Shown here in pieces: positions 1,212 to 21,023 of a DNA stretch of 24,998 bases. How positions within the stretch are numbered: position 1 is the first letter of the stretch; every line of letters starts with the position of its first letter. The notes under the pieces are model-generated. The model saw only the letters and a list, made by a program, of their open reading frames with translations. It had not been told where the DNA came from and searched no databases. This stretch comes from Monosiga brevicollis MX1 (Eukaryota > Opisthokonta > Choanoflagellata > Craspedida > Salpingoecidae): positions 2,386,381 through 2,411,378 of the forward strand of contig NW_001865040.1 in NCBI RefSeq assembly GCF_000002865.3. The letters run 5' to 3'. The position numbers and the translations under genes were made by a program.

Positions 1212-4072
1212 CTACTCCCTCAACGTACCAGAGGAGACGCAGGCAGCATTGGCCGTAATTGGTTCGGCTGGACTTGTCGGTGCTGGTTGCAGTCCCAATT
1301 GCGATGCTAGCGGATATCTACGCGCAGCCATCTCCAGCGATTGCCACATGGCAGCACGAGCAGCCTCATCTCGTGGTCGCTAGGGTCCACAGAACATGGA
1401 ATAAGAAGTTCATCAGGTCTCATGGCCAGGCGTGTATGCCGTGCAGCGCTTAGCATCACCAACCTGGGCTGCTTTGTCCATGGCTGCGGCAGAGAGCTGG
1501 TGAAAGGCTGGCGGGTCGACCCGACGCAAATCAGCCAGGACGCGGTTCGCCAACAGTGAGACACCAGTATGCCAGTGCCGGGTTGCCTACACCACAACAT
1601 GCCGCGCGGTTCAAGGTGAGGCGTTGAAAAACCAGACCAGAGAGAGCATCAAGGAAGCCCGACGAACAAGGGACAAGGCGCCAACCTCGAGAAGAGGATT
1701 CAAGAGAACGCCCATGCTATCTACAAAGCTATCCATAATCATGTACATGCTAAAGCTTGACTGCATGATCAGCAACGCTCGCTCTGCCACTTGAAAATGT
1801 TTGCTGCGCAGCGCATATTGCAACATTTTTAAAAGTATGGGCAAAACCTGTTGACATGGCCAAAAGGCAATGAGGCGCGTGCCCGACCAATATTCAGCCG
1901 GCTTGTCCCACCTCACGTATCGCAGAAGCGCGGACAAACCTCCTGAAAAGCATAGTCCGTGCACTCAATGAGGAGGTCGTTGACCTCGTTCAGGAAGAAC
2001 AACTGCTTCACCGAGTTTGTTTTGGGCCAGTATCGCAATAACACTGCATTGAGGAATGAGGGAAAGGGAGGTAGTGACGTCAGGGTCATTGACATGATGA
2101 GCCGATACGTGTAGCATGGACAAGTTGAGAGATAAAAAAAAAAAGCGCCGAGAGATAAAAAAGAACCGCTGACACGTGCTTGCAGGTGGGGATCAGCTCA
2201 TGAGCCAGTTGAACTGACCTTCAAGAGCGGGAACCAGGCTCTCTGGATCTTTCTCAGACAAGTACACCACAACGCAAAAGCTGAGCTATTGGGAGGTAAA
2301 AGCGAATGGGATGCAAAAAGCTGTAAGTATCGAGCAGGTGCTGCGACCGGAACCAAGGCAACCAACGTATCAACCTGTGATGCAAAGGGATTAATTGACT
2401 TGGCCGCATGCAAAGGCAGGATGACGTCAAAAAAAGCACGACGGTGCTCCGCGCGGATTGGCGTTGCGAAACCTTTGATGATGCTACCGACAACCTCAAT
2501 GATTTCCTCGATGCCGTTGTGGGATTGTGACTCGTAGATAAAGCTGCAAGGCGTCATTGACCAAATCGCCAGCGTATTGCATTGACGCTGGTGAGCATTC
2601 AAGACAGACCAAGCGATGTCAGCTGCCAACCAGAGAAGCAGCAGACATACTGAAGCAACTCGTCACGAATGCATTTTCGTATGGTAGCACGCAAGCTCGG
2701 CAAGATGCCGTATACGCGATGCAGGATGGATTTCATCCAATCACGTTCTCGAAAATCCTCTGCAGAGCGAAGTCGTTGCAACACCTTGGGACAAAGACAA
2801 ACGGTTGACGTGCAGGCCATGTTGGCGTCAGAATTACAAACAGAGTTGAGGAAACCTATGGCAAAGGGGGCACGGGAGCAATGGGTATGTGCTCCTTCTG
2901 ACCTTGAGTACAAAGGGCTGCCGAAGGTATAGCCGTCCCACGTGAGAGTCAAAGAGCGGATTGGAGATGTAGGCAAAGAAAGCATTGAGTGCCAACTACG
3001 AGCACGCCAGCCAAGAAATGATATACGGCGCACGGTGGGGACAGCAGCCCGACAGGAATCACCCTGCAGGATAGCATTGGCAATGGCTCAAGCAAGCAGG
3101 ACATGGTGCGCGCACCATTAAATGAGGCCAAGAAGGGTCAAGCACGCAATCGTCCTCTTCTAGATCAAAGTCGGCCCCGCCGAAGCTGGTGGGTGGTCGC
3201 GGTCGGGTCAAGCAGTTAATCTCAAACATGTTGACCATGTCGCCCACGAGGGTCATGGAGAAGGCCAACTGCGTGCATTGAAATTGTGGGGCACCAGTAA
3301 CCGGATCCAACTCGAAGAGCTGCACCAGCTCTCGCAATGCGGTGCGCTTCATCTCTCGCGCTTTGAGGCTCGATAACTCGGCCCCAGGGCTAAAGTCGAA
3401 CATGTAGTTGCAGTTTTGAATTTTCTGGCGCATGAGGGCCACATCCTCGAGAGTTGAACATCCTGTCAGCGCACATGTAACATGGGTAAGTTTTGACGGC
3501 GCCAAGAGAAAAAGGGCCGAGGGCTGATCGTGTTCGACTAGGCTCGACACCTTGTACCTCGCAAGGGTGGCAGGCGCACGGGTTTTGGAGAGGCTTTACT
3601 TGAAGAAAGGGCGGGCTTGGGTGGGCTCTGAGACGAGCGCCTCTGAGCCTGCATCAATTCAAAAGCAGAAAGCGATGAGTGCGCTAGACGCCATCCCTCT
3701 GCGGCGCTGACCGAGGGGCATGGCTACCAAGGAAGGCCAGCAGGCCATGGCAACCCAAACAAGCCAGAAGCGCACCTTGCTCAAGTTGTGGTTATTGAGT
3801 CCCGATCCAGGAGATGTAATCTTTTGGAAACCAGGCAAAGCGTGAAGGGGACTGCGGATCCCCAGCTCGCCGCGTCAGCCGCCTGGGCGTCAAGTCAAAA
3901 AGAGGAAAAAAAAACATACCTCGACATCGGCCTTGGAGACTGAGGCTTGCTCCTGCAACATGGTATGGCTACTCGAGTTGAGCATCACTTACTCACGGCG
4001 GGAAGGGCGGCGAGCAACTCCAGCAGCAGCAGGAGCAGGTCCGGCCGCTCCTTCAATGTTGCCCGTCACCAT
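1212..4072 (-). CDS. PP2A regulatory subunit B56 (PPP2R5 family), multi-exon
   Basis: Regulatory B' (B56) subunit of protein phosphatase 2A, which joins the scaffold and catalytic subunits and recruits substrates carrying LxxIxE motifs. The chosen start at 4072 gives MVTGNIEGAAGPAPAAAGV followed by a basic Ser/Pro stretch. Exon 1 ends at 3993 (GTAAGT donor), exon 2 is 3952-3920, and exon 3 begins at 3557. HEAT-like repeat landmarks in order are FDLEEDDCVLDPSWPHLM, ISNPLFDSHVGRLYLRQPFV, FRERDWMKSILHRVYG with LRATIRK, SHNGIEEIIEVVGSIIKGF, PLHAAKSINPF, LLRYWPKTNSVKQLFFLNEV, KHFQVAERAL, then HWHTGVSLL. The last exon, RDEAARAAMWQSLEMAARRY, stops at 1212. HRVYG and LRATIRK lie in the segment that forms the LxxIxE-binding groove in animal B56, so peptide binding is probably kept. 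About ten exons; the conserved core looks complete. Which animal isoform it corresponds to cannot be told. Confidence 0.93.
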
Positions 4073-5277
4073 GGATCGAGACAACAACACGACAGGAGGT
4101 GGGGGAAGCAGTTGGGGCAACGGCAGCGTCGCAGGCTGCAAGTTTGGGTACGGAGGTGATCAGCTGTTCAAGCAGAGGATAAAGCGCCACAAACGGCAGC
4201 CCCAGCCCAGGAGATGCCTCTTCAGACTCGACCGTCTCAGCAATGACGGTACAAAGTAAGGAGAATGGCATCCAGTACAGAGAAAACACAACTTCACTCA
4301 CTCCCAAACCAAACAACAAACAGCAACAGCTCGCGCGCGCGCGCGCTGGCCAAGTATCTGTCCTGCTTGTCCTTTGTGACGTACCAACCCAGGGTATGGT
4401 GATGAAGGTGATGATGATGAAGCGGGGGCTTCCGATGTGCTCGTCACAAGCGAAGGGAGCGTGAGGTATGGAACCTTGCTGGGCGGTCGCTGATGTCACT
4501 GCTGAAGAACAGACGCAATGCACGAGATCAATGAGTCTTGATGGTGCTGGTGTCATGTGCAGCAGGTGTGCTCTGAAGGAGAAAGGGTGGGCCATGGACC
4601 ATCAAAGGGGGCACGAAGTTGCTTGGGGCTGGTGAAAGATGGGGGTTTATTGTGGGTGGTTGGGCGTGGTTGGGTCCGATGGTCCAGACTGCCCAAGCTT
4701 TTCTAGTTATGTGGTGGCTTTACCCTTCACCTCATCACCCACAGAGGCAGGCGTGGTGTTGGACACACACAGTCATGGGTAAGGAACCCTTGATCGAGGA
4801 GGGCCCTTTGGTTTTGCGCTTTACTAATAATGAGTTCATCCACTCACGTCTATCAAGTACAAAAATGGGATGGCTGGTGGGTGTTTTATTAAAACGATGA
4901 TGGGGGTGACAAGTCGAACTCACCGTCGTGCCCGGCAAAGTCTGCCCCGGCGCCCCAAACCAGTTGGCACTTTGAAAGCTGATCACAAGGGCTTGGGGTT
5001 TCATCGTTGCAAGTTGCCGCCGTCAACTCGTCGCTGCGCCATAGAACCAAACACCCATGTGAAAAGAAGGGGCTCTGAAAATAAAATAAATTACTTTCCG
5101 TAAACACGCTTGTGTGGCTGCGAAAGTGCGGTTTGAGTTGAATTGGCGCACGGGGGAGAAGTCTTGTTCAAGGCTCTTAGCAGCCTCCATCACCCAGAAA
5201 CGTGCGTGCCCACCCAGCCACCCCCCGGCCTGCCTTCCTCCCAACCCCACTACGCCAAAGTTGCAACTCATCATCAT
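4073..5277. other. Region upstream of B56, no confident gene
   Basis: This is the 5' side of the minus-strand B56 gene up to the left end of the transposon. It probably holds the B56 promoter and 5' UTR. A long open frame on the minus strand (4595-4053) runs into the B56 start but shows no family resemblance and is probably fortuitous or UTR. A pure CG alternation sits at 4332-4346 and GATGATGAAG-type triplet runs near 4400-4420. Open frames at 4735-5107 look non-coding. No RNA gene was recognised. Confidence 0.5.
4332..4346. repeat. Short (CG)n alternation
   Basis: Fifteen bases of uninterrupted alternating C and G lie about 260 bp upstream of the B56 start codon. Such tracts can adopt Z-DNA; no function is shown here. 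Confidence 0.6.
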
Positions 5278-5307
5278 CACTACCAAAATATTCAAAGCCA
5301 AAAAAAT
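5278..5307 (+). repeat. Left terminal inverted repeat of the CACTA element
   Basis: Thirty bases starting CACTACCAAAATA, then T, then TCAAAGCCAAAAAAAT. Inverted partner at 10659-10688, with one mismatch (position 14, T here and C there). The preceding AT at 5276-5277 may be the target duplication. Confidence 0.93.
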
Positions 5308-5520
5308 AAAGTTTTAAATTCGATTTAATGATGTTCAAAAGTTTTATAAAATTGTTTGGACAAGGAAAGACCCCAAAAATATTCCGGAGTTTTTAAAAAA
5401 CAGGGGTTATTTTATTTTGCTCATTTTCATTTAATTATTCTGTTTTCGGGTACATGTGCAGTAATTAGATTTAAAATTTAATTTTTTATCGATTTTTATT
5501 TCTTTTGTTCTTTTTTTGGC
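5308..5520. repeat. AT-rich left subterminal region with one inverted ACAAAAGA box
   Basis: This stretch is strikingly AT-rich compared with the GC-balanced genes around it, with many T- and A-runs. It holds a single TCTTTTGT at 5501-5508, the reverse complement of the ACAAAAGA box that is repeated eleven times at the other end. It is the expected position for transposase binding in a CACTA element. No coding potential was seen. Confidence 0.6.
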
Positions 5521-5700
5521 ACGGGCGGGGTGGTGGCGGGGAGCAGCTCGTTGGGGCTCATTCAGGATGGATGCGTGCAGTGAAAGCTCCTAGAGGCTTC
5601 TATCCTTGAGAAGGCCCACTGCGCTGTCATAAATGTAAATTAGACCAGTGTGTTGGAAGCGCATGTGGTACCTTCCGTTGTGCACTGTTTGGGAGGGAGA

Positions 5701-6750
5701 TCAAGCCTCCTTCTCCTGCTCTTGATGGCCGGCATCTTCGTGCGCGAGTGTGTGAGAGCGGTGTAAGGAATGGTGCTGGTCATGTCGGTTCTGGGGATTG
5801 ATGTTGTTGATGAAGAGATGTAGCGCTTGTGAAAGGTTGCCGTCTCGTAGAGCCAAAACAATCTCATCTTTTTCCTGTACAGCAGACAATCGCAAGAGAA
5901 GTGCCAAGTCGTTCATGTCACGCAAGCTCGGAGAACGTCTCGCAAAGAGCATGAACAACCCATCTGGCTTGCTGCATAAACTGAGAATTTGAGATGGTGA
6001 GAGCTGGAGACAGGAGATCGACTGGTGAGGACGAGTAGGGCATGATCTTACCTCTGCACAGCTTTGACCAGCGTCGCCGATTTAAACTCCTTCACACCTG
6101 GGATAATTTCGCAGGGGCCTCTGTGTTGGCAAGAGGTCGGCTTCTCTCCCCCTGGTGTAACAAAACGGCAAAACCTTCGCAGCAAAGCATAGATTCTTGC
6201 GGATATAATCAGCACTGAGGTGGCCACTTGTGAATGGGTTCCAAGGATAGACTCGGTCAAGCCAAAGGTCTTGTAAGCAAGCAGAGAAGCACATTCAAAA
6301 AAATGGTCGCAGGTACAAGCCGCCGAATACAGTGTGGGAATGTTTGTCTGGCTGAGCCAACCAGCTCCTCTTATCACCGTTGTCGCCTCTCACGTCGCCA
6401 GCTAGACGACCGGAGCGGGAGATTCGTGCCACATGGACAATGTACGACGCTAGTGGATGCAGGTCACCGTTCTCCCTTGACCACCTTGCAAATTCAGCCG
6501 CCCCCATCAGTGTTTTCAAAATATCCTCTCGCATTAGCCTCATACCTGACGTGCGGTCGACGCGGAGAACATTTGAAGTTTCGAGTGGCGCCAGGCCGTT
6601 GAGAACGAGCAGAGAACTGGCGAACGCCTTCATCTCAAATTTTGCCTTTGAACATCCTCGAGGCGGGCGGCATGCGTATCGGCCTGGACTCTTCCGCCTG
6701 GCTGTCCCTTGTGGTTCTCTGAACCCGTGTGGCGTCCTGTGCAGCTCCAT
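5701..6750 (-). CDS. Unrecognised multi-exon gene inside the transposon
   Basis: Start chosen at ATG 6750 (MELHRTPHGFREPQGTARRK), giving about 300 residues. Exon 1 can end at 6393 before GTGAGA; exon 2 then reads TNIPTLYSAACTCDHFFECA and continues through FGLTESILG and VATSVLIISARIYALLRR. A clear intron (GTAAGA donor near 6050, TCTCAG acceptor near 5986) joins KSATLVKAVQ to SLCSKPDGLFMLFARR. The last exon has a helical segment LLLRLSAVQEKDEIVLALRD and a His/Gln/Glu-rich tail. An optional 54-bp in-frame intron may lie near 6171-6118. It is divergent from the transposase gene with 187 bp between start codons. It could be the second protein of the element (the role of TnpA in plant CACTA elements) or a captured host gene. 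The block FGLTESILG...SARIYALLRR faintly recalls the NEPRO/DUF4477 family of rRNA-processing proteins, which I hold only as a weak guess. Confidence 0.6.
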
Positions 6751-6936
6751 GACGTGAGAGTCTGCGACTGGTGCCACAGTTGGTATCGTCGACGCGAGAA
6801 GAGAAGAAAAAAATAGCAAGTGTGTGACGCGGTCGTTACAAACCAAACTCAACGGCCACGCCGTTGCAACAGTCACTTTTGCTGACAACGACTTGCTCGC
6901 TCGATCATCAGTTTGCCAAGTTTGCCAGGTAACGTC
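6751..6936. promoter_or_regulatory. Probable shared promoter of the two transposon genes
   Basis: These 186 bp separate the divergent start codons at 6750 (minus) and 6937 (plus), so both promoters must lie here or in overlapping 5' UTRs. No TATA box or other defined element was recognised. The assignment rests on geometry alone. Confidence 0.4.
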
Positions 6937-9900
6937 ATGGCGGCAGGAACGGATCAAACACGTACTGATGCCGCTTCGCCGGCACAGTCTTCAGAGCCTC
7001 TGCAGCTGCCTGCTATGAATACCTGGCCAGATCTCTTCTCTTTTGACCCTGAATGGGAGCAAGAGGTGTGCCGCGTAGTATCACAATCAGGAAAACCTTA
7101 TTACCGTCAGCGACCGCGCCGGCCGCGCCAATCAGACGTGGGCTTCCTCGGGCCAAAGCGGCCCGTAGGCCGGCCAAAAAGCGCCTCAAAGAAAGCAAAG
7201 AAGTCCAAAAAAAGCCGGAAGCAGCGCATGATGCCCAGTGGAGCTGTGGGGGCTCACAGACCGAACACGGATCTCCTACCGGTCTGACCAGCGCTCCTTC
7301 ATCGCCAGCCCATGAACTCCCAGCGGGAGGACAGCTGCAGACTGAACACGGAGACTGAAGATTTGCACACAGCGTCGCACTCAGCAGCTATTGAAGATGA
7401 GTCGGAAGCTGATAGCGATTGTTCCGATAACAGATCAGAGCTAGGATTTGGAAGTGACGCCATCGCCGACGATCCTGCGTTCGGCTTCAGTGACGACATG
7501 CCTTCCGCCTCTGACCCTGGATCGGACGATGACGCCACCTCTGTCTCCAGCTCCAGCTCTGAGGAATGCAGGGCGAGTGAAGACGATGGCTTGGATGCCT
7601 TCCTTGACGGGCTGGATGGGGAAGACGCAGCTTTGGAATGTGAAACCGCCCCAGGAACTCTAGCATACACGACAGCTTGTCTTGTGTGGCTAACATTTTC
7701 CTTCTTGCAGAGCAGATCGTGAAAGAGCACGGAAAGTTGGTCGAGGTATTTGATCCAGAGACTGACAAACATAACAAGGTATGATGTGCCACGATGCATT
7801 CAACTCAATGTTGTGTTTTCCCAGTGATTGCCGCCATTGCTGTGCCAGAAAATCCATGCCATCTTACATGTGTATGCGTGCATGTGCGTGTGTGTGGGTG
7901 CGTCGACAACACTCGCATTCTCGCGTAGCTTAAAATTGTCATAACACGACTACTGGTCGATACTCCCCGGCGGTCCGACTGTGCAAGCCATGCGGGCAGC
8001 TCAAATTTTCCGTGCTGCTATTGTGAACAAGAAAAGAACAAAGACCTCGCCGACGCTATCATTCAGATGAAACCGCCCAGCAACAAGAGCAACGAATATT
8101 ATGGCCCAGGGGTCAACCGCGAGTTAACTCTTGAAGAAGAACCATTCGAGCTGCCGTGGATGAAGACCACTGACCCAGACGAGTCCAAGGCTCTCCAGAA
8201 AGCAGAAGACCTTGGCTATGGAGTAGCCCAGGAACCAAGCTTAGCGCCTCTCCGGACGCATGCATCCGCCACGGCCAACCACGAGTCGTTGGGTTACAAG
8301 GACAAGCGCAGCCCCTGGCCCGCCGTCATCGACGTGTATGACACGTTCCAAAACCCACCCGAGAGCCTTCATTTATGGGCATTGGGCATACTCAAGGTCA
8401 ATCCCACCTCTTGGCATGCAGATGTATTATGCCCTCAAAACAATGTCTCATTCCTGCAAATGTTGTTGCCCTTCTCAGTATGTTGTGCAGAATATCCGCG
8501 ACCTCAGCGCGCGTGGGTTGTCAAAGACCGTGAGAATCAGAATGTCCCGGGAAATGAAGACTTTGATCCAAGATTATGAGTATGTCTGGCCTGCCGTCGG
8601 GACACTCGAGCGATGTCTAACAGCTGTTGTGCCAATAGGCGCTTGCATCCCCGTGAAGGTCACAAGCCTCGCTTGAATGAGATGGGGTCGTGGAACGGTG
8701 CTTCATATCGATGGCAGTTGAACGAGAAGGTGTTTTGGATTGCACACGCTCCAGGTAAGAGCACCGAGTTTGAGTACTCCTGTGGATTGACCGTGCTCAC
8801 TTCCGCACAGGCCACACTAGGCCTAAAAATACCCGCCGAGGACTGTCTGTGACTAGGATGATGCGAGTCGTGGCCTTGTGCTTTCGATGTGCCGAGGTCG
8901 GATCACGGCGCACCGGTGCTAGCGCAATTATCGTTTGTGTCGTGTGCCTTTTATAATTTTTCGCCATGACACGTCTCATACCATGAACTCATCGTGTCAG
9001 ATTGCCCTTGGCCCCAGCACGACAGCTGAGGAGCGGCAGGAACTCGACTTGATCGTTGGACCAAGAGTCTTAGAGCTAGCCTGGCCAAACTCTCTAAAGG
9101 CCCATCACGTGGTAAGCCATGCCGAGCACGTTTACGACCCGACCCACCTCACAGCATAATATATTTTTTTTTAGACGTGGCACCTTACTCATGCCCTGAA
9201 ACAATGCGGACCAAGGTTTCTGTCAAACGAAAGGTCGGAGACCATGAACAAGTACACAAAGGCGGCTGCAAAAAAATCCAACAGGAGGCATCTCGCGCGT
9301 GATATCGGACGCGCCCACCTCATGCAGGTAAATTAGTCGGCCGTTGTACCACAAACAAGACACAAAGCTTACGATGTGCTTCAAATAGACGAAACTGCTG
9401 TTCAGCCTGCATGGTGCACCCACAACACCACCACGCGGCATCGATAAGAGCGTATGGCAAGCCACATTGGTTCGCCATGCTCCAATGCTATTCCAGCTAC
9501 TAACAGCAGAAGCCGACGCCCAAGGCCAAGCGCATCGTCACCTGAGACTGAGCAAGACAATGGCCAGGTGTGACATGACTAGTCACAGGCAACACATGAT
9601 ACATTGAAAAGTTTATGCCAGGCAAAACTGATTATCGCTTCCTGCCATGCGTGTCTGCTGTGTTTACAGAACGCCGGGCAAGAGGGCCCTGGCCCAACCC
9701 CTCTCCGAGTGGATACAGTTGATTGGTTTCGACGCGACAATGCCCGTTCATGGCGTGAGTGCTTTCGAGGACAACACGTTCACCGGGTGGAATCGCTTGT
9801 CTTGGGGTACCAAATGGACCATTCGCGGTCTATCAACCTGGTCAGAAGAGGCACCACGCCCGCGCCCGTGGACACGGCTACGTTATGAATACATTCTTCG

Positions 9901-10322
9901 CACCCGCGATGGATTGGACGGTATGCACTGGTGTGCGCATTTCGACCGGTTCAACAATAACACTCACTCAATGGGCCCACTTCACAGGCGTTTTTCTGAT
10001 GGGATTGAAGAACACTGGCGGACCAGAGTCTTTGATGCTGTTGGCCATCCTCGATCGAGACACAGACATGCTTTCGAACGGCTGTCCAACGCATCCACTA
10101 ACATATTGGTGCCACCTCCCCGGCTACAAACACGAGTCGGCCCAAGCACGATTGGCTTTAGTACAAGTCTCTGACGTTGTAGAAGTTGCAAGCATGAACC
10201 ACGACTGTGCAACGAAGCGAGCATGCCGTTTCGGAGACGGCAAAGGCTGTCGAATCGCAGAACATCCCTTGTGGATCCGCACCAGAGTCATATGGGACGT
10301 AGAACGACAACTGTTTGCGTAG
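6937..10322 (+). CDS. Tnp2-like CACTA transposase, multi-exon, with AT-hook N-terminus
   Basis: The start at 6937 gives MAAGTDQTRTDAASP; an AT-hook-like KRPVGRPK and a Lys-rich run follow near residues 75-100, then an Asp/Ser-rich acidic region (7340-7640). The join between them is unclear, with a stop at 7285, and the join to the next exon is also unsettled. Family sequence begins at 7711: QIVKEHGKLVEVFDPETDKH, then exon 7929-8396 with LLVDTPRRSDCASHAGSS and PCCYCE, which fit the second catalytic Asp and the C(2)C motif of CMC transposases. It continues with PPESLHLWALGILK; exons 8491-8579 and 8639-8754; 9175-9327 with CGPRFLSNERSETMNKYTKA and SNRRHLARDIGR; 9389-9567; 9670-9920; and 9988-10322 with VVEVASMNHDCATKRAC. 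Fungal Tnp2-like proteins have the same order, including the C-terminal NxxHxC-type motif. The region expected to carry the first catalytic Asp (several hundred residues) is not recognisable. The 6937-7640 part may be a separate gene. Confidence 0.75.
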
Positions 10323-10336
10323 AATTTGAACTGACG

Positions 10337-10357
10337 ACATGTGAATTGACATGTGAA
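10337..10357. repeat. Short direct repeat after the transposase stop
   Basis: ACATGTGAA occurs at 10337-10345 and again at 10349-10357, just downstream of the transposase stop codon and just before the ACAAAAGA array. It may be part of the subterminal region; no role is shown. Confidence 0.5.
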
Positions 10358-10365
10358 GTTGCAAA

Positions 10366-10620
10366 ACAAAAGATCCATTCGACCAAACAAAAGAAACAAT
10401 TCAGAGAACGGAAGAGAACAAAAGAACAAAAACAGACAACAAAAGAGACAACGAAATTGTGAACTAAAGACAAAAGAACAAGATCAGAAAACAAAAGAAC
10501 TCGAATAAGAACAAAAGAATCATTTTAAGCAAACAAAAGAAACGAAAGAACAAAATCAGAAAACAAAAGAATTTCGCTCTCGCACGTTCGGAGAACAAAA
10601 GAATAACGGCAAACAAAAGA
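10366..10620 (+). repeat. Array of eleven ACAAAAGA boxes, right subterminal region
   Basis: The exact octamer ACAAAAGA starts at 10366, 10387, 10418, 10439, 10470, 10491, 10511, 10533, 10563, 10595 and 10613, all in the same orientation. Most copies extend to AACAAAAGAA. Start-to-start distances are 21, 31, 21, 31, 21, 20, 22, 30, 32 and 18 bp, almost all close to two or three turns of B-DNA. The bases between boxes are not conserved, so this is not a simple tandem repeat. Subterminal motif clusters are the binding sites of element-encoded protein in plant CACTA transposons, and the position here fits that role. Confidence 0.85.
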
Positions 10621-10658
10621 ATTGGCCAGTAATGTCATAAGCTTAACCTCGATTTCCA

Positions 10659-10688
10659 ATTTTTTTGGCTTTGAGTATTTTGGTAGTG
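10659..10688 (-). repeat. Right terminal inverted repeat of the CACTA element
   Basis: The reverse complement reads CACTACCAAAATA, then C, then TCAAAGCCAAAAAAAT, matching 5278-5307 at 29 of 30 positions. It is followed by AT at 10689-10690, the same dinucleotide that precedes the left end. Confidence 0.93.
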
Positions 10689-10743
10689 ATCAAACAACAT
10701 TTGTCAGCAAAAGTCAACTTTGGGCTGACATCCGCGATCCGCA

Positions 10744-10750: not shown

Positions 10751-10856
10751 TAAAATACTTCAGCCGGTGGTCTCAGCTCGGGAACAAAAGATTTTTGCTT
10801 TTGACTTTTTTTTCCTTTTTTTGCTTTTTTTGCTTTTTTTTAAGTGACGGCGCAGG

Positions 10857-13800
10857 ATGGCAGCCAGTGAGGCGGATGCCACTGCGGTAAGTGGACCCAT
10901 ACGTGGGTGATGTGTGCCATTGTTACATTCATGATGGGCTCGAGACCACTGTTGTTGCTATTTGATGGGGCTCATGTACCTGCCTGACCGGTTTGATAGG
11001 TGGCGGATCTACTCAACAATGCGCAGCTCGAGTCAGACAAGGCTGAACGCGTGCTCGCGCTGCAACAGGTAAGCCGCGGCAAACTTGGGGCAACGATCCC
11101 ATGCCCCAATCTGGTGCCGCTTGTCAGTGCTGCTTTGAATAATTTCACAATCCCACACGTGCTAGATCGAGGAGCTCCTGCTCAAGAAGTCACCCGAGCT
11201 GCTCGACAACTTTTTTGAGGAGATTCTGAACTTTCAGCTCGATTCGGCGCCTGACGTGCGAAAGCAGCTGGTGGACTTTGTGGAACGAGCAGCGTATGTC
11301 ATTCCATTCTCACCTTGTTTGCAATTCCCCAGCTTCCTTGGACGGGCACCAAGACGCCCTTGCTCTCATCGAGCAACCTGAACGCCTCGCGTCGTCACTC
11401 ACACGTGTCATGCTTGGGCCGCCATGGCACAGATTGATTGATGCGGGTTTGATTCCGCGCATGGTGGATAGCCTCACCTACTTGTATAATGACACCAACA
11501 GTGGCGTACGTTTTGAAGTCCATACACGCCGAGCCACGAATCATGTTGCCTGCCCCTCCCTGACTGGTCTCGCTAAGCTCACAACATGCCATGGATTCGG
11601 ACCACCTTCCTTCAGGTGGTCAAGCGGGCTTTACAGGCGGCCGCGTGCTTGGTTAAGCACTGCTTGCAAGAAGCTTGCGATCACAGCCGAGGTGGTGGTC
11701 GCGTCACGCAGGTAAAGCTCTCTTGCTTGGCACGGACGCCGTCACGTCTGGCCACTCGCCTACCCTCACGCCCGAGTGCCATCGATACAGGATACCTGGG
11801 AGAGCACGATGCGCATCGTGGATGCAGGACTGCAACAGCGTGCTGCAGCCAATGAGGGCGTCAAAGCCGCCTGCATGAAGCTGATGGAAACTTGCGTCTT
11901 GCTTTTCTCGAACCGTACTCAAGACACTCAAAAGAAGTCACAGGATGACCCCTCCCTCGACCTTGTCTCCGGAGCCCACCACTACCTCGACGTGCGACTT
12001 GCGACCGTTCGGGTCCCGACCAGTTTTTGACTTTATCATCTGCAGTCATGCTCACCGCTGTCTCTCTGGTCGCGCTTTCCTGCTCATTTTCACCACGCAG
12101 CCTCAAGTACTGCAGGAGAAGGGCCGTACCCTGTTTTCTACCCTGGTTGCGCTAGGCCAGAGCCATGACATCAAGAATACCAGTATGACGGTTGTCATCA
12201 GTACCCTTGTCAGCATCATGCGTCAAGTAAGCAAGATTTTTCGGTCTCTTGGCGCCAAGTGCAGAGCACCATCATCTCACTGCGTGTGCGTGCAACTTTA
12301 CATAACTTGCCAGCGGCCACAATTCATGCACCAAGGCATTCCTTTCTTGCAAGAGTTGGCCAAACAGCCGCCCAAGCACTTTAAAGTAGGTCATCGTGAA
12401 GGAGGTCGTGGCCGAAGCCGGCCTTTGAAATTGGTTGCTCTCGGTTCCCCTCAGCCTCAGCCAACCGTATCATGATTTGCAGGAGAGCACGGTGAAGAGT
12501 TTAAACAGAACGCTCAAGACTCAGCTTCTGATTATTTTGAAGCACGATGCGTCACTTGCCTTCCATGAGCAGGTCAGACAACCCGTCTTGCGATCAATGC
12601 CCCCGAGATGCTCCCACACCCTGCTTGCCGTTCTTTGATCGTAAGGCTTGAACCTAACATTGCTGAACGGCGTCTCAATAGCTTATTCCCTTACTCAAAG
12701 GGCTCGGCGCCCAATCACACGAGTACCGCAAATTCGACCGTCGTGCCGAAGCACGGGAGCAGGGTCTACAGGCTACGGCTGTGCCCGTGGCCCAGGACCC
12801 CGCCAGGTAGATGCAAAGCTTAGCCCGCGGGCCAGCCTTTTTCGCCGTCGCCTCACCCCACATGTTACTTTACAATAGTGAAACAGGCACCGCAACCGGT
12901 GAACCCCCGGCCAAATTGGCTGTATGTTCATTCCAACTAGTGCCTCTGGTTCTCGTCGGACGTTTGATCACTCAAAAGTCTGCTCGTTTTGTTGCCCTCT
13001 GTGCCCTTGATAGAAACACACGTCGCCGTATTTGGAGGAGAGCTATCTGATCAAGCATTTGCGTCCTGAACAACTAGCCGAGTTGATTTTGCAAAGGTAT
13101 GAAGTCCATACAAGTTCTCCACAGCCATTTGTCTGATGAAGGAGGCGGAACCTGGTTACATTTGCGTGTGCTTTGAGGGCAACACTCACCCCCTCCCTCC
13201 TCCTTCTTTCTGCTTTGGTGCTGTGACCGAATGTGACTGGTGCTCAGCTTGGCTCTGGCAGACATGCCCCAGCAAATGCCGGCCTGGCTCGAGGACGATG
13301 GACAAGCCACAACTGGCATCTCGGCTCGCGCTCAACGAGGTAGATGATTTGAGTGTCGACGATATCGGCCAAACGCTTTTGCCCCAGCTCTTTTCGACAT
13401 GTCGTCACTTAATTTTTTTTTCTCGTAGTGGCTGGCCGAGGCGGCGATGCTGAAGCTCAAATGTCCAGTTTGCATGCCGCACCGGCGTTGCCCGACGTCA
13501 AGCCGAGCGAAGTGCCAACGCCACAGCCAAGCACTCGAACCAAATCGCGCAGGTCTCGACTCGATCGATTCAAGGTCAAGGCTGAACCCATCAATGCGGG
13601 TCGAGCCCGAACGTTGATCACACAGTGTTTTGAGCGATTGCTAGCTGCAGAGCCCCAAATGAAGACAAGCGAGTCTCGCCAAGCATACCATCATGCACTC
13701 TGCGCCATGGTCATCGCTGACTACTACAACGCCACAGAAGAGGTTCTGGGACAACTCAAGGCCAATGTCGACGCCAGCGACAGTCCGAGTATCAAGACGG

Positions 13801-15987: not shown

Positions 15988-17322
15988 ACGCCTGTCTTTG
16001 CAAATTCGCATGCACTGGAATCTCATGCCATGCACTCGGGCGTTTCTTGCGCGGTGCTTTTTGCAGAGCAATCCCTCCCTGTATTTACGCCAGAAAACTT
16101 TTTGATGGCCTTGCACCGCCTAGCACATCGCGAATCACGCCTACTTCCCGTGCGTGGCCTCGTATCCAAGTCTAGTCGTATTAGCTTTAGCCCAGTGCGC
16201 TCATGTCAGGCGCTCGCACTCTGGTGACCCGATGCAGATTGTGCAAGTGGCAGTTGATATCTGCTTGAGCAACGGCGAGGACGGTTATCATAGCATGACC
16301 GGCATCTATACCATGGAGGTGCTGGTGACGGCGTTGCAGCGAATCTGTAACATGTCACCCATCCCCCTGCTGCTCTTCCACACCGCCTCGCGCACTTTGC
16401 GCAATTATCCCAATCTCACAGGTAAGGTGCATATGCTGGTGCATGCGCAAACTGTGGTGTAGCGCTCACGCTGCCACGACGCTGATCTAGATTTTATTGT
16501 TGACAACGTCTTGGCCAAGCTCTTGCACAAGCAGGTATGTCTGCGTCTACGCGTTTGATGGGCGTTTCAGCCCTGCCGCTCTATGCTGACCTTTACTGGT
16601 TATCTTTCTTCGATGATCTTTCTTCTGCTTCAGGTGTGGAAGACGAATGGCATGTGGGCGCCGCTCAAGAATCTGATACACACGTGCCAACCCAAATCGT
16701 TTGAGTTGCTGCGCCTCCTGCCTTTGGCACAACTTGACCGACTCCTGAAGGTATGGTCTCTACCATCACACATGCGTGTGCTTTTCTCGCTCTTTTTTTT
16801 TTTTTTCTTTTTTTTTTTTGGAAGGCGCTTTCTGTTCGCTTTTCGACTGCCATCTGGGCCAGCAGCAGCCAATGCTCAAGAACTGTCCGCTCTTTTTGGT
16901 CCATCATGTGTGTGTGTGTGTGTGTGTGTGTCGATTTTGAGCAGGAATTGCCGGAGCTGCGCGGGGCTTTTTTTGTCTTTGCGCGCGCCATGCCCACGGC
17001 CGTGGCTAATGCTTATCCTCGCAAGCACAAACAATGGCTGTCCTTGCAACTCAAGAACGCCGATGCAGCCGGTGCGACCGCGGGGGCAGACTCGAACGCG
17101 CCAGAGTCACAGCCAGAAACCGATCCAATGGAGGATTTGACTGCACCGCCCCCAGATTTGGATTTGGACAGCGACGAAGACTTTGAAGCCCCACCCGAGT
17201 CTGGTCGGGATTCAAGGCTTCTCTTGGAAGGCGATGCCGCTGCTCCCAACGAGTCACCTAAGGAGACTGAGCAGGACGACGACGATGACGACGATGGTGA
17301 CGCACCGTACATGCCGTCATAG
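10857..17322 (+). CDS. Symplekin (Pta1-like scaffold of mRNA 3'-end processing), multi-exon
   Basis: Symplekin is the nuclear HEAT-repeat scaffold that binds the CPSF/CstF cleavage and polyadenylation machinery and the histone mRNA 3'-processing complex. Exon 1 is 10857-10886 ([10 protein letters not shown]), exon 2 is 11000-11068, and exon 3 from 11166 reads [20 protein letters not shown]. The N-terminal HEAT domain continues with [62 protein letters not shown] and [20 protein letters not shown]. The middle part includes [16 protein letters not shown]. The C-terminal symplekin domain shows [56 protein letters not shown] and [16 protein letters not shown]. The last exon ends in an acidic tail with an Asp run. 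More than fifteen exons; phases agree where checked. Two introns hold long microsatellites. The transposon ends 168 bp upstream. Confidence 0.93.
14438..14722. repeat. TG/TCTG compound microsatellite in a symplekin intron
   Basis: About 285 bp of alternating (TG)n and (TCTG)n blocks, ending in TTGTGTG repeats. It lies in an intron that opens at GTGAGT near 14315 and closes at GGCAG near 14755. The long Cys/Val/Ser open frames across it are artefacts of the repeat. The multi-block pattern suggests repeated slippage and interruption. Confidence 0.95.
15929..15985. repeat. 57-base poly-T tract in a symplekin intron
   Basis: An uninterrupted run of 57 T lies between the exon ending MTQAGPS and the next symplekin exon. 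It could serve as a very long polypyrimidine tract for the acceptor downstream, or be an expanded homopolymer. Its assembled length may be unreliable. Confidence 0.9.
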
Positions 17323-18293
<971 letters not shown>

Positions 18294-21023
18294 ATGGCGA
18301 ATCTCGGCGTGATGGCTCGAGCACAGCCTTGGCTATCCAATGTCATGACGGCTGTCTCAGTCATGAGGCGGAATATGGCTCATCGTGCTCTACCGACCTA
18401 TCAAGCGCCTTCCTCCACCACCGGCGCGCCTTCTCAGGACGTGCCTTCGCATGTCGGATATCCCGAGAGCAACTACGCCTACCTAACTCGCCCGGGCCCC
18501 TACATGCCCCCGCTGGAGGAAGAGCATGATGCTTGTGGTGCCGTGTACGTAGTTTCCGCCAGAGAACGCTTTCCCCCCGCTTGCGGCGCCAACGCCTGGT
18601 GGTCTTGCGTGATCAGACGTGGCACGCTTGTTGTGTGCTCATGGTGGTGGTCAATCAACGCTGGTCTGTCGTTGATAGCCTCTCAAACATTGCACAGCAA
18701 GTACCAGAGCCGACGTACGTCACCGTCAACAAGGGGTACAACGTGTTCACCTCTGAAGAACCGTTCCAGTGCGACATCACCCACAATCCCAATGGTGGTA
18801 CGCCTAAAACACCACCGCTCGCCACGCTGGTGGGCAGTATCTCATTTCGCATCCCTGCTCGCTCGTCAGGTCTCCTCTCGGGTCTGCAAATCGCCTATGA
18901 AACATGGGGTGAGCTCAACGCCAAACGAGACAACGCTATTCTTCTGCACACTGGCCTTTCAGCCTCGAGCCACGCTGCGGCCCATCCCGTACGTAGCTCA
19001 GCCCCTGAAGTACTTCGCAAACAGACATGAACACCACTCCCCCTTGCCAAGTCATGCCGCTATGTTCCTATCCCTCGCGCATAGAATCATGATGCCCCAG
19101 GTTGGTGGGAAAAGTTTATTGGTCCAGGCAAGGCACTAGACACGGACAAGTTTTTCATTATTTGCTCCAACAACCTTGGGGGCTGCTATGGAACAACGTG
19201 AGCTTGCTTGCATGACCACCGCTTTGGGGCTAAAAGCTCTGCTTACACCCCGTGCCCCGTGTGGCCTCTCATTTGTTTATTGCGTGCTCCCATTCGTGTC
19301 CCACTTCCTGTAATGATTTCGCCTCCGCCAGCGGGCCCGCCCACATCAACCCAGCGGATGGCGAGGTAAATCCCGACAGATTTAATTTCATCGGGTCAAT
19401 GGCCTTGGCTCTGCGTCACAAAGCTCATTGCCAGTTGGCATCCTGTGACTCACCTGTGTTTGCCCATCGCAGCGCTATGCGATGCGATTTCCGCTTGTCA
19501 CCGTCCAGGACATGGTTCGCGCCCAGTTCCGCCTTCTGGACCACCTGGGCATCCATCGTCTCCACGCATCTGTCGGCTCTTCCCTCGGAGGCATGCAGGT
19601 GCGGAACGCTTTGGCCCATTGCTATATGATTGCCGCTGCTCGCGTTACCTTATTTTTGCAGCCATGTCTTACTCACCAGGCTGCCTGCCTCTGATCCGCT
19701 GACTGGCTGATCTTTGAACAGAGTCTTACAGCTGCCGCCCTCTTCCCCGAGCGCGTCAATAGCTGTGTGAGCATCAGCGCCGCTCACCGCGCTCATCCCA
19801 CGGCCATTGCACTTCGGTTCGTGGCGCCCAAATCCAACTGGTCGAGTCTCAGTCAACCTGACTGCAACAACTTCTTACCATGAATCTACGCACTGTCTTC
19901 TTGTCATGGCGCCAACAGCTACATGCAACGTCGCATCATCATGTCTGACCCGCATTGGGCTGGTGGCAATTACTATGACAACACTTTTCCTGTCGTGGGC
20001 ATGAAGCATGCACGGTCTGCCCAAAATGCCCAGCTCTACACCTCTCAACTCGAGTGTTTCAGCAGACCAGCATGTTGTGTCTGATTCTCACGCGACGCGT
20101 GTGTCCTGCTCTACATGATTTGTAAAATGCAGCGAGGTGGCTACCATTAGCTATCGGTCTGGCCCCGAGTGGTCGGATCGCTTTGACAGGTGCGCTGCGT
20201 GTCAGCCATAAGGCCTCGTCCGCTGTCCCGGTTACCTGTGCAATAAGATGCCCGTGCTCACGTTGAATGGGCAACCGCAGGCAGCGCATTGAAGGCGCCA
20301 AACACTCCTTTCAACCCGAGTTTTTGATTGAAACCTACTTGGACCATCAAGGCACACAAGCCTGCTTGCGCTATGACCCAAACTCACTTCTTTACATTTC
20401 CAAGGTAAGAAGGCCACGGGTGTCCGGGGTGCCGCTCGGCTTTTGGACTCGTCTTCCTATGTTCAATTTTCCTGCCATCTCACCCCTTGTCCTTTTTTTT
20501 TTTTTTTTTTTTTTTTTTGTTTTTATTTTATTTTTTTTTTTCTCTCCTCTCATTCTTTTTGGGTCATCGCTTCGACAGGCCATGGATCTCTTCGATCTCA
20601 CGGAAGGCTTTGCTACACCTGAAGAGGCACTCGAACGCATCGGCTGCCCGACGCTGGTACATTGTTCTGCGTCCTGCCTGACCGTCCCCGTTTCAAATCC
20701 TTGGGCCCCAGTTCAAATCGGCTGTGGCTTGTGCTGTATCATAGGTGATTGGCGTCCAGTCTGACTTGCTCTTCCCTGTATCTCAGCAACAAGAGCTAGT
20801 GCGCCTACTCAGGTAACACTCGCTCAAGGAGATCGTATTGGGCCATTCAAGTATTTTTCTCATGCATGTTTGCTGGCAACTTGACAGGAGAAGTGGCAAT
20901 CGTCGCGTGACGTACTTTGAGTTGGATGCACTCTACGGTCATGACACGTTTTTGATCGATGTTCAGACCGTGGGTGCGGCTGTTAAGGGACACATTGAAC
21001 ACAGTGCCGTGACCGATATTTAA
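18294..21023 (+). CDS. Homoserine O-acetyltransferase-like enzyme (MetX family), multi-exon
   Basis: MetX-type alpha/beta-hydrolase-fold acyltransferase that acetylates homoserine from acetyl-CoA in methionine synthesis; some relatives act on serine, so the substrate is inferred. Start at ATG 18294 ([20 protein letters not shown]). The Arg-rich, mostly uncharged N-terminus could be a mitochondrial targeting peptide (inference). Landmarks in order: [20 protein letters not shown] and [37 protein letters not shown] and [52 protein letters not shown] with the nucleophile Ser in [74 protein letters not shown] with the catalytic Asp; and [14 protein letters not shown] with the catalytic His. It ends at SAVTDI. 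All three catalytic residues and the oxyanion segment are present, so an active enzyme is likely. At least ten exons. It is convergent with the P2X gene. Confidence 0.92.
20493..20518. repeat. Poly-T tract in an acetyltransferase intron
   Basis: Twenty-six T followed by further T-rich sequence up to about 20545, inside the intron between exons [13 protein letters not shown] and [10 protein letters not shown]. It probably forms part of the polypyrimidine tract of the acceptor before 20580. Confidence 0.85.

Follow-up and report, generated by a model that had tools for sequence, protein, structure and literature searches.

In maize, the plant CACTA element Spm/En combines CACTA ends with subterminal repeats and is accompanied by deletion derivatives. 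For the subterminal repeats of plant CACTA elements, binding of an element-encoded protein has been proposed (PMC2613891). In the CMCT clade, a group that includes Transib, the source of RAG1, target duplications range from 2 to 5 bp, and the motifs C(2)C and H(3-4)H are shared by several lineages, so that they do not single out EnSpm (PMC12730594). Motif I of the transposase was reported in most of the elements compared in an earlier study, with altered versions in three of the four fungal ones (PMC1636069).

For Monosiga brevicollis, an earlier survey gave only three transposable-element families, all of them LTR retrotransposons, and for Salpingoeca rosetta seven DNA-transposon families were given with no CACTA element, the word being missing from the main text of that survey (PMC6875170). 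DNA transposons as such are not new in M. brevicollis because Dada-1_MB, which belongs to another superfamily and is described as targeting small RNA genes, has been listed from the same host (PMC3706591). In the literature on CACTA/EnSpm together with choanoflagellates, as far as its accessible text goes, no choanoflagellate CACTA element was found described; a Repbase entry may exist. The family reported here is of a known kind and is probably new, 2-bp duplications in CACTA relatives being already on record.

The window, i.e., the whole stretch of 24,998 nucleotides that was analysed (G000:C55:2386381-2411378), belongs to a host assembly of 39,470,161 bases in 57 contigs. With a probability of roughly 0.85, the element in it belongs to a CACTA-like (CMCT-clade) cut-and-paste family of M. 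brevicollis with few copies and is a non-autonomous member that has suffered an internal deletion (Table 1). The longer form of the family, about 6.3 kb in length and present once in the assembly, carries two divergent genes. The host is identified as M. brevicollis on the strength of one Munc18 exon of the genome, for which 61 aligned residues of a 63-residue query were identical to chain A of PDB 2XHE, a M. brevicollis protein (PMC3693963).

Table 1. Features of the window copy and its immediate surroundings; positions refer to the window, and gene parts are models.
Feature	Position	Strand	Remarks
CACTA-like element, window copy	5278..10688	+	5,411 bp
Left terminal inverted repeat	5278..5307	+	starts CACTACCAAAATA
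Right terminal inverted repeat	10659..10688	-	29/30 matching left repeat
Left AT of 2-bp target duplication	5276..5277	.	TT/TT in copy 2
Right AT of 2-bp target duplication	10689..10690	.	flank comparison
Second, divergent gene (predicted)	5701..6750	-	310 aa; exons 6750-6394, 6347-6052, 5980-5701
5' part of putative transposase gene	6936..7687	+	candidate ATG, basic stretch, acidic stretch
Junction of 901-bp internal deletion vs copy 2	7687..7688	.	codons 158-363 of model, incl. D324
3' part of putative transposase gene	7688..10322	+	ten coding pieces, 629 aa open
Single inverted subterminal motif TTCTTTTGTT, near left end	5500..5509	-	also one in copy 2
Subterminal array, 11 ACAAAAGA (10 in copy 2)	10365..10620	+	18-32 bp apart, near-multiples of 10.4 bp
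Host TTTGTCAG, part of over-represented near-palindrome	10700..10707	+	12th base outside right end, as in copy 2

Among 16 inverted pairs given by repeat finding in the window, the arms 5276-5307 and 10659-10690 (32 nt, 97% complementary) ranked first; the runner-up in complementarity (91%) consists of A/T runs. When a 27-base end pattern was run against the 39.5-Mb genome with up to 3 mismatches, four matches were obtained (a lower bound, as are all repeat counts given here), corresponding to both ends of the window element and of a second element, copy 2, of 6,325 bp (G000:C42:772965-779289) with TT on both sides; the reversed control of the pattern gave 0 matches. Beyond these two elements, no further copy with both ends was seen in the genome.

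The borders read CATCAT/CACTACC...GGTAGTG/ATCAAAC in the window copy and CTTATT/CACTACC...GGTAGTG/TTCCTG in copy 2. From the window copy alone, AT (2 bp) or TCA (3 bp, with the element starting TCACTACC) would be equally possible; the 3-bp TCA duplication was ruled out by copy 2, where TT (2 bp) fits and 3 bp does not. Because copy 2 has the same ends with TT on both sides, the borders are set as CACTACC...GGTAGTG with a 2-bp target duplication. These ends, found in 2/2 bordered copies, are of the CAC(TA) type of CACTA/EnSpm elements (CMCT clade), and the duplicated dinucleotides, which differ between the copies, fall in both cases within the 2-3 bp of that group (2-5 bp in the clade). Each 2-bp duplication would match by chance about once in 12-16 by our estimate; two such matches alone are not strong evidence, the exact common ends are. 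A sequence-only reading of the window had already pointed out 30-bp inverted repeats with CACTACC starts, flanked by AT on each side, in a probable choanoflagellate, and repeat finding, the comparison of ends and flanks and the Munc18 exon agree with it on all these points. Its view of a 2-bp duplication as unusual is overstated, such duplications having been described for animal CACTA relatives (PMC1636069) and lengths of 2 to 5 bp for the CMCT clade as a whole (PMC12730594). It had also named, as support, other copies with the same ends and empty sites with a single AT; the former was encountered once, as copy 2, and the latter not at all. When the flanks were joined with one dinucleotide, no genome match spanned the junction at either of the two sites. 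The joined flanks of the window site retrieved their own two halves and two partial matches (47 and 45 bases), each inside one flank, and those of copy 2 their own two halves with no further partial match.

Searching the genome with the transposase model described below gave 32 exon matches, which lie in both copies, in a fragment on contig C50, in a fragment on contig C52 and in one weak C50 match. The C50 fragment (L014 5473-4322, G000:C50) is diverged and truncated, with 82-89% identity over two main pieces, and joins copy-2 position 2106 directly to 3023, a second case of internal deletion in this region of the gene. The C52 fragment (L015 5177-4573, G000:C52) is 73% identical over 670 columns of the 5' part; in the protein-model match, it reached 53%, with stops. 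The weak match (G000:C50:470436-470585; 34%, E 0.0015) concerns the C-terminal part of the transposase model and lies on the opposite strand, about 3 kb from the C50 fragment. In addition, L016 2406-2458 (G000:C50) matches the right subterminal region at 92% over 53 bases and lacks the terminal repeat.

On the plus strand of copy 2, removal of 13 GT-AG introns (56 to 150 bases each) gives an open frame of 992 aa; splice sites were chosen by hand, partly guided by the expected protein, and the exon edges of the transposase are provisional. The product of the modelled gene would be a DDE transposase carrying CMCT-type zinc motifs. In the window copy, 9/9 GT-AG introns are kept to the right of the deletion, and 629 aa are open to the stop of copy 2 over coding pieces 7688-7778, 7929-8396, 8479-8579, 8639-8754, 8811-8896, 9001-9111, 9175-9327, 9389-9567, 9670-9920 and 9988-10322. 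The frame starting at the candidate ATG breaks before the acidic frame in both copies, and the length of an A-run differs among copies; one or both copies may be disabled at this A-run, or an assembly error may be present there. The divergent gene, open in both copies, is predicted to encode a smaller protein of about 310 aa; its model with two introns is one of six open splice choices, with provisional edges. When this protein was searched against the genome at E≤0.1, all 6 matches were inside the two copies, and it had no match in Pfam. Our guess is that it is a DNA-binding partner of the transposase. As to the two genes of the sequence-only reading, the divergent arrangement of a transposase-like and a second gene with open, spliceable frames was confirmed, while the label 'Tnp2-like' found no profile support and depends on motif order; nor can the window copy be called complete or intact, as it lacks 901 bp of the transposase gene.

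In an alignment of the two copies, a single large gap is seen, at which the window copy is without 901 bases that copy 2 has. In a genome search with this stretch and its edges, copy 2 was recovered together with 323 bases at 93% identity at C50:466754-467076. The C50 fragment covers copy-2 positions 3023-3794 (88.7%) and thereby runs across the right breakpoint at 3334/3335. Because the C50 fragment holds part of the stretch and crosses the right breakpoint, the difference is most parsimoniously explained by a deletion in the window copy. The converse, an insertion of 901 bp into copy 2 that would leave the window copy intact, draws on the fact that a length difference by itself is symmetric, but it is rendered very improbable by the C50 fragment and by the extra stretch being coding in copy 2, where it contains four introns and continues the reading frame on either side. 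The deletion takes about 206 codons (158-363 of 992) from the 13-intron model, and the first catalytic aspartate was likely lost with it. The window copy would thus be a deletion derivative that has forfeited its autonomy.

Apart from the gap, 62 of the 5,398 aligned bases differ between the copies. The 40 coding differences comprise 11 synonymous, 29 non-synonymous and 0 stop changes, compared to 26, 70 and 4% expected without selection; this is the neutral ratio, and no purifying selection between the two copies was seen in these differences. The corresponding comparisons with the fragments are too weak to use: against the C50 fragment, 15/46 coding differences were synonymous in one stretch (24% expected) and 5/15 in the other (26% expected), and against the C52 fragment, 16 synonymous, 29 non-synonymous and 3 stop changes were counted among 48 (26% synonymous expected). 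The differences are unevenly spread, 44 of the 62 lying at copy-2 positions 1634-2385 (32) and 3398-3702 (12), on either side of the deletion, and 2 in the first 1,500 bases; six of the 44 adjoin a 22-base gap and possibly reflect alignment noise. This clustering to the left and right of the deletion raised the suspicion that the deleted copy is a mosaic, and it possibly arose by recombination or gap repair. At the informative positions, the C50 fragment agreed with copy 2 at 7 sites and with the window copy at 5 (n=12), and in its other stretch at 1 and 1 (n=2); the C52 fragment agreed with copy 2 at 6 sites and with the window copy at 1 (n=12). The two fragments do not decide the matter.

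For classification of the transposase, profile and sequence searches were combined with a comparison of motifs. No Pfam match was obtained with ten single frames at E≤1 or with the whole 992-aa model and its core at E≤10. A search of the genome with the profile PF02992 gave 0 matches, but it recovered 0/14 controls, which makes this result uninformative. The 530-aa core had 0 matches in a PDB sequence search at E≤10 and 5 pattern hits in viral contigs, none of which was confirmed; Rfam at the gathering threshold gave 0 matches, and no tRNA was found. The model protein does not contain motif I of Transposase_21 in its strict form (DG...WP). The residue order of the model, which is that of CACTA-type enzymes and was compared with the published CMCT signature (PMC12730594), is D324-80-D404-18-C422xxC425...H686xxxH690-19-E709, with H685xxxxH690 as well as D325 or D320 as first aspartate as alternatives, and a box-A-like motif, PESLHLWALG, is present at position 537, with E for D and P for L/V/I. 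Among 5,000 shuffles, the residue order was found in 154, the box-A-like motif in 19 and both together in 1, the motif limits having been set after the protein was seen and the box A pattern allowing E for D. The residue spacing may resemble that of RAG1. Because of its ends, the duplication and the motif order, and with no profile match, the element is classed as CACTA-like and as a putative member of the CMCT clade; a place inside EnSpm is not claimed.

Subterminal repeats, a further feature of CACTA/EnSpm elements of the CMCT clade, are present. Counted on the plus strand over the full 25 kb of the window, ACAAAAGA has 12 occurrences, 11 of them at 10366-10620, inside the right end, and one at 10784, outside the element. 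The spacings are 21, 31, 21, 31, 21, 20, 22, 30, 32 and 18; their phasing near 10.4 bp is 0.91, a value matched by a fraction of 0.0001 of 20,000 random placements, and part of it may stem from tandem duplication, a 31-bp unit being seen at 10386-10448. Elsewhere in the genome, L017 4100-4370 (G000:C55:2278100-2278370) is a dense AACAAAAGAAAG-like tract that resembles the subterminal motif of the element; no close copy of the terminal repeat was found in the 8 kb examined around it.

We propose that the transposase would recognise the 30-bp CACTACC ends and that a DNA-binding protein, bound to the phased ACAAAAGA repeats just within the right end, would assist it. The element would then be cut out and inserted elsewhere in cut-and-paste fashion, where a 2-bp staggered cut would lead to duplication of the target dinucleotide.

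The element lies between minus-strand frames of PP2A B56 (2602-3595) and, on the plus strand, a match to symplekin (16559-17137). At 10857, some 170 bp beyond the element, a candidate ATG is present at which the symplekin gene may start. At 18054-19136 of the window, frames are present that, by eye, presumably resemble homoserine O-acetyltransferase; a single frame from there had no Pfam match at E≤0.1. In both right flanks, TTTGTCAG(A)CAAA was noticed in the same orientation (window 10700-10707; copy 2, L003 7802-7814), the window site being short of one base of the palindrome. Genome-wide, TTTGTCAGNCAAA gave 67 matches compared to 3 for the reversed control, and in 58 of these matches the sequence is TTTGTCAGACAAA, which is palindromic except at its central base. 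Twenty of the 67 places were examined by eye and showed diverse contexts, three of them being one repeated sequence, and some places (L065, L066 and L067) hold several partial sites. In the 67.9 kb examined, which include both right flanks, there are 5 occurrences of TTTGTCAG and 3 of its complement. TTTGTCAGNCAAA looks like a regulatory site. It is conceivable, if doubtful, that the element picks its target by way of a host regulator, the transposase complex being tethered by a factor that binds TTTGTCAGNCAAA-type sites, in which case a unicellular organism closely related to animals would harbour an element that inserts near promoters. The shared right-flank site concerns two insertions, and the match, noticed after the fact, is suggestive only.

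Weighing against our main reading are the presence of only two bordered copies and the lack of a Pfam match, of the strict motif I, of purifying selection and of an empty site. Two bordered copies might also result from a segmental duplication of a host locus that involves no transposon. This is hardly credible and ranks below every other explanation considered, as the two copies cease to be alike at the inverted ends, the BLAST alignment extending past them by 1 base (left) and about 23 bases (right), as the ends are inverted repeats with different dinucleotides repeated on both sides, and as no other place with both flanks was found.

The nature of the transposon leaves more latitude. A CMCT-clade transposon other than EnSpm proper (Plavaka, Mirage, Chapaev, ESTA or an unnamed lineage), with ends that start CACTA, is the strongest competitor, though unlikely overall; it overlaps the main reading, which claims only the clade. 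It would fit the lack of a profile match, the occurrence of C(2)C and H(3-4)H in several CMCT lineages and the 2-3 bp duplications and CATCA...TGATG ends of PlavakaB, but CACTACC...GGTAGTG in both copies corresponds to the CAC...GTG type of fungal EnSpm (PMC12730594), and AT and TT duplications exclude a fixed TA target. A cut-and-paste transposon outside the CMCT clade, in which ends and motif order would be alike by chance, could likewise appeal to the missing Pfam and PDB sequence matches and to the residue order alone arising in 154/5000 shuffles. It is improbable, as ends, 2-bp duplication, subterminal array, residue order and box-A-like motif all agree. A CACTA-like member of the CMCT clade in deleted form is the reading we retain.

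On this reading, the CACTA-like family, of which one longer copy is well bordered, contributes a class of transposon absent from the S. rosetta survey in its main text, and the CMCT group would extend to a place close to the root of the animals. In the window copy, the familiar fate of CACTA elements, internal deletion with the ends left, would be seen to occur in a choanoflagellate too, here in an element that sits beside a housekeeping gene of M. brevicollis.

In comparison with described systems, the soybean Tgmt* has CACTA ends, subterminal repeats and deletion derivatives, as does the Monosiga family, but a 3-bp duplication and 13-bp ends, whereas 30-bp ends, a 2-bp duplication and an A-rich phased motif are found in Monosiga (PMC2613891). 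Fungal EnSpm elements share the CAC...GTG ends but make 3-bp duplications, and Plavaka, with duplications of 2-3 bp, includes the 2 bp of Monosiga; the C(2)C and H(3-4)H motifs of both resemble those of the Monosiga model, a likeness by description only (PMC12730594). SmTRC1 has a 2-bp duplication in 7 of 14 copies, like the Monosiga element, and together with animal and fungal TRC elements, it has two D about 80 residues apart and CxxC, as predicted for the Monosiga model; its motif [LVI]-D-x-[LM]-H-x3-L-G has a box-A-like counterpart in PESLHLWALG. In contrast, the terminal repeats of SmTRC1 and TRC begin with CCC, and their Transposase_21 domain is recognised, neither of which holds for the Monosiga element (PMC1636069). 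CoCACTA1 and CoCACTA2 of Capsaspora owczarzaki are likewise CACTA elements of a unicellular holozoan; they make 3-bp duplications and are present in 18 and 35 copies, whereas the Monosiga element duplicates 2 bp and has two bordered copies (PMC4007536).
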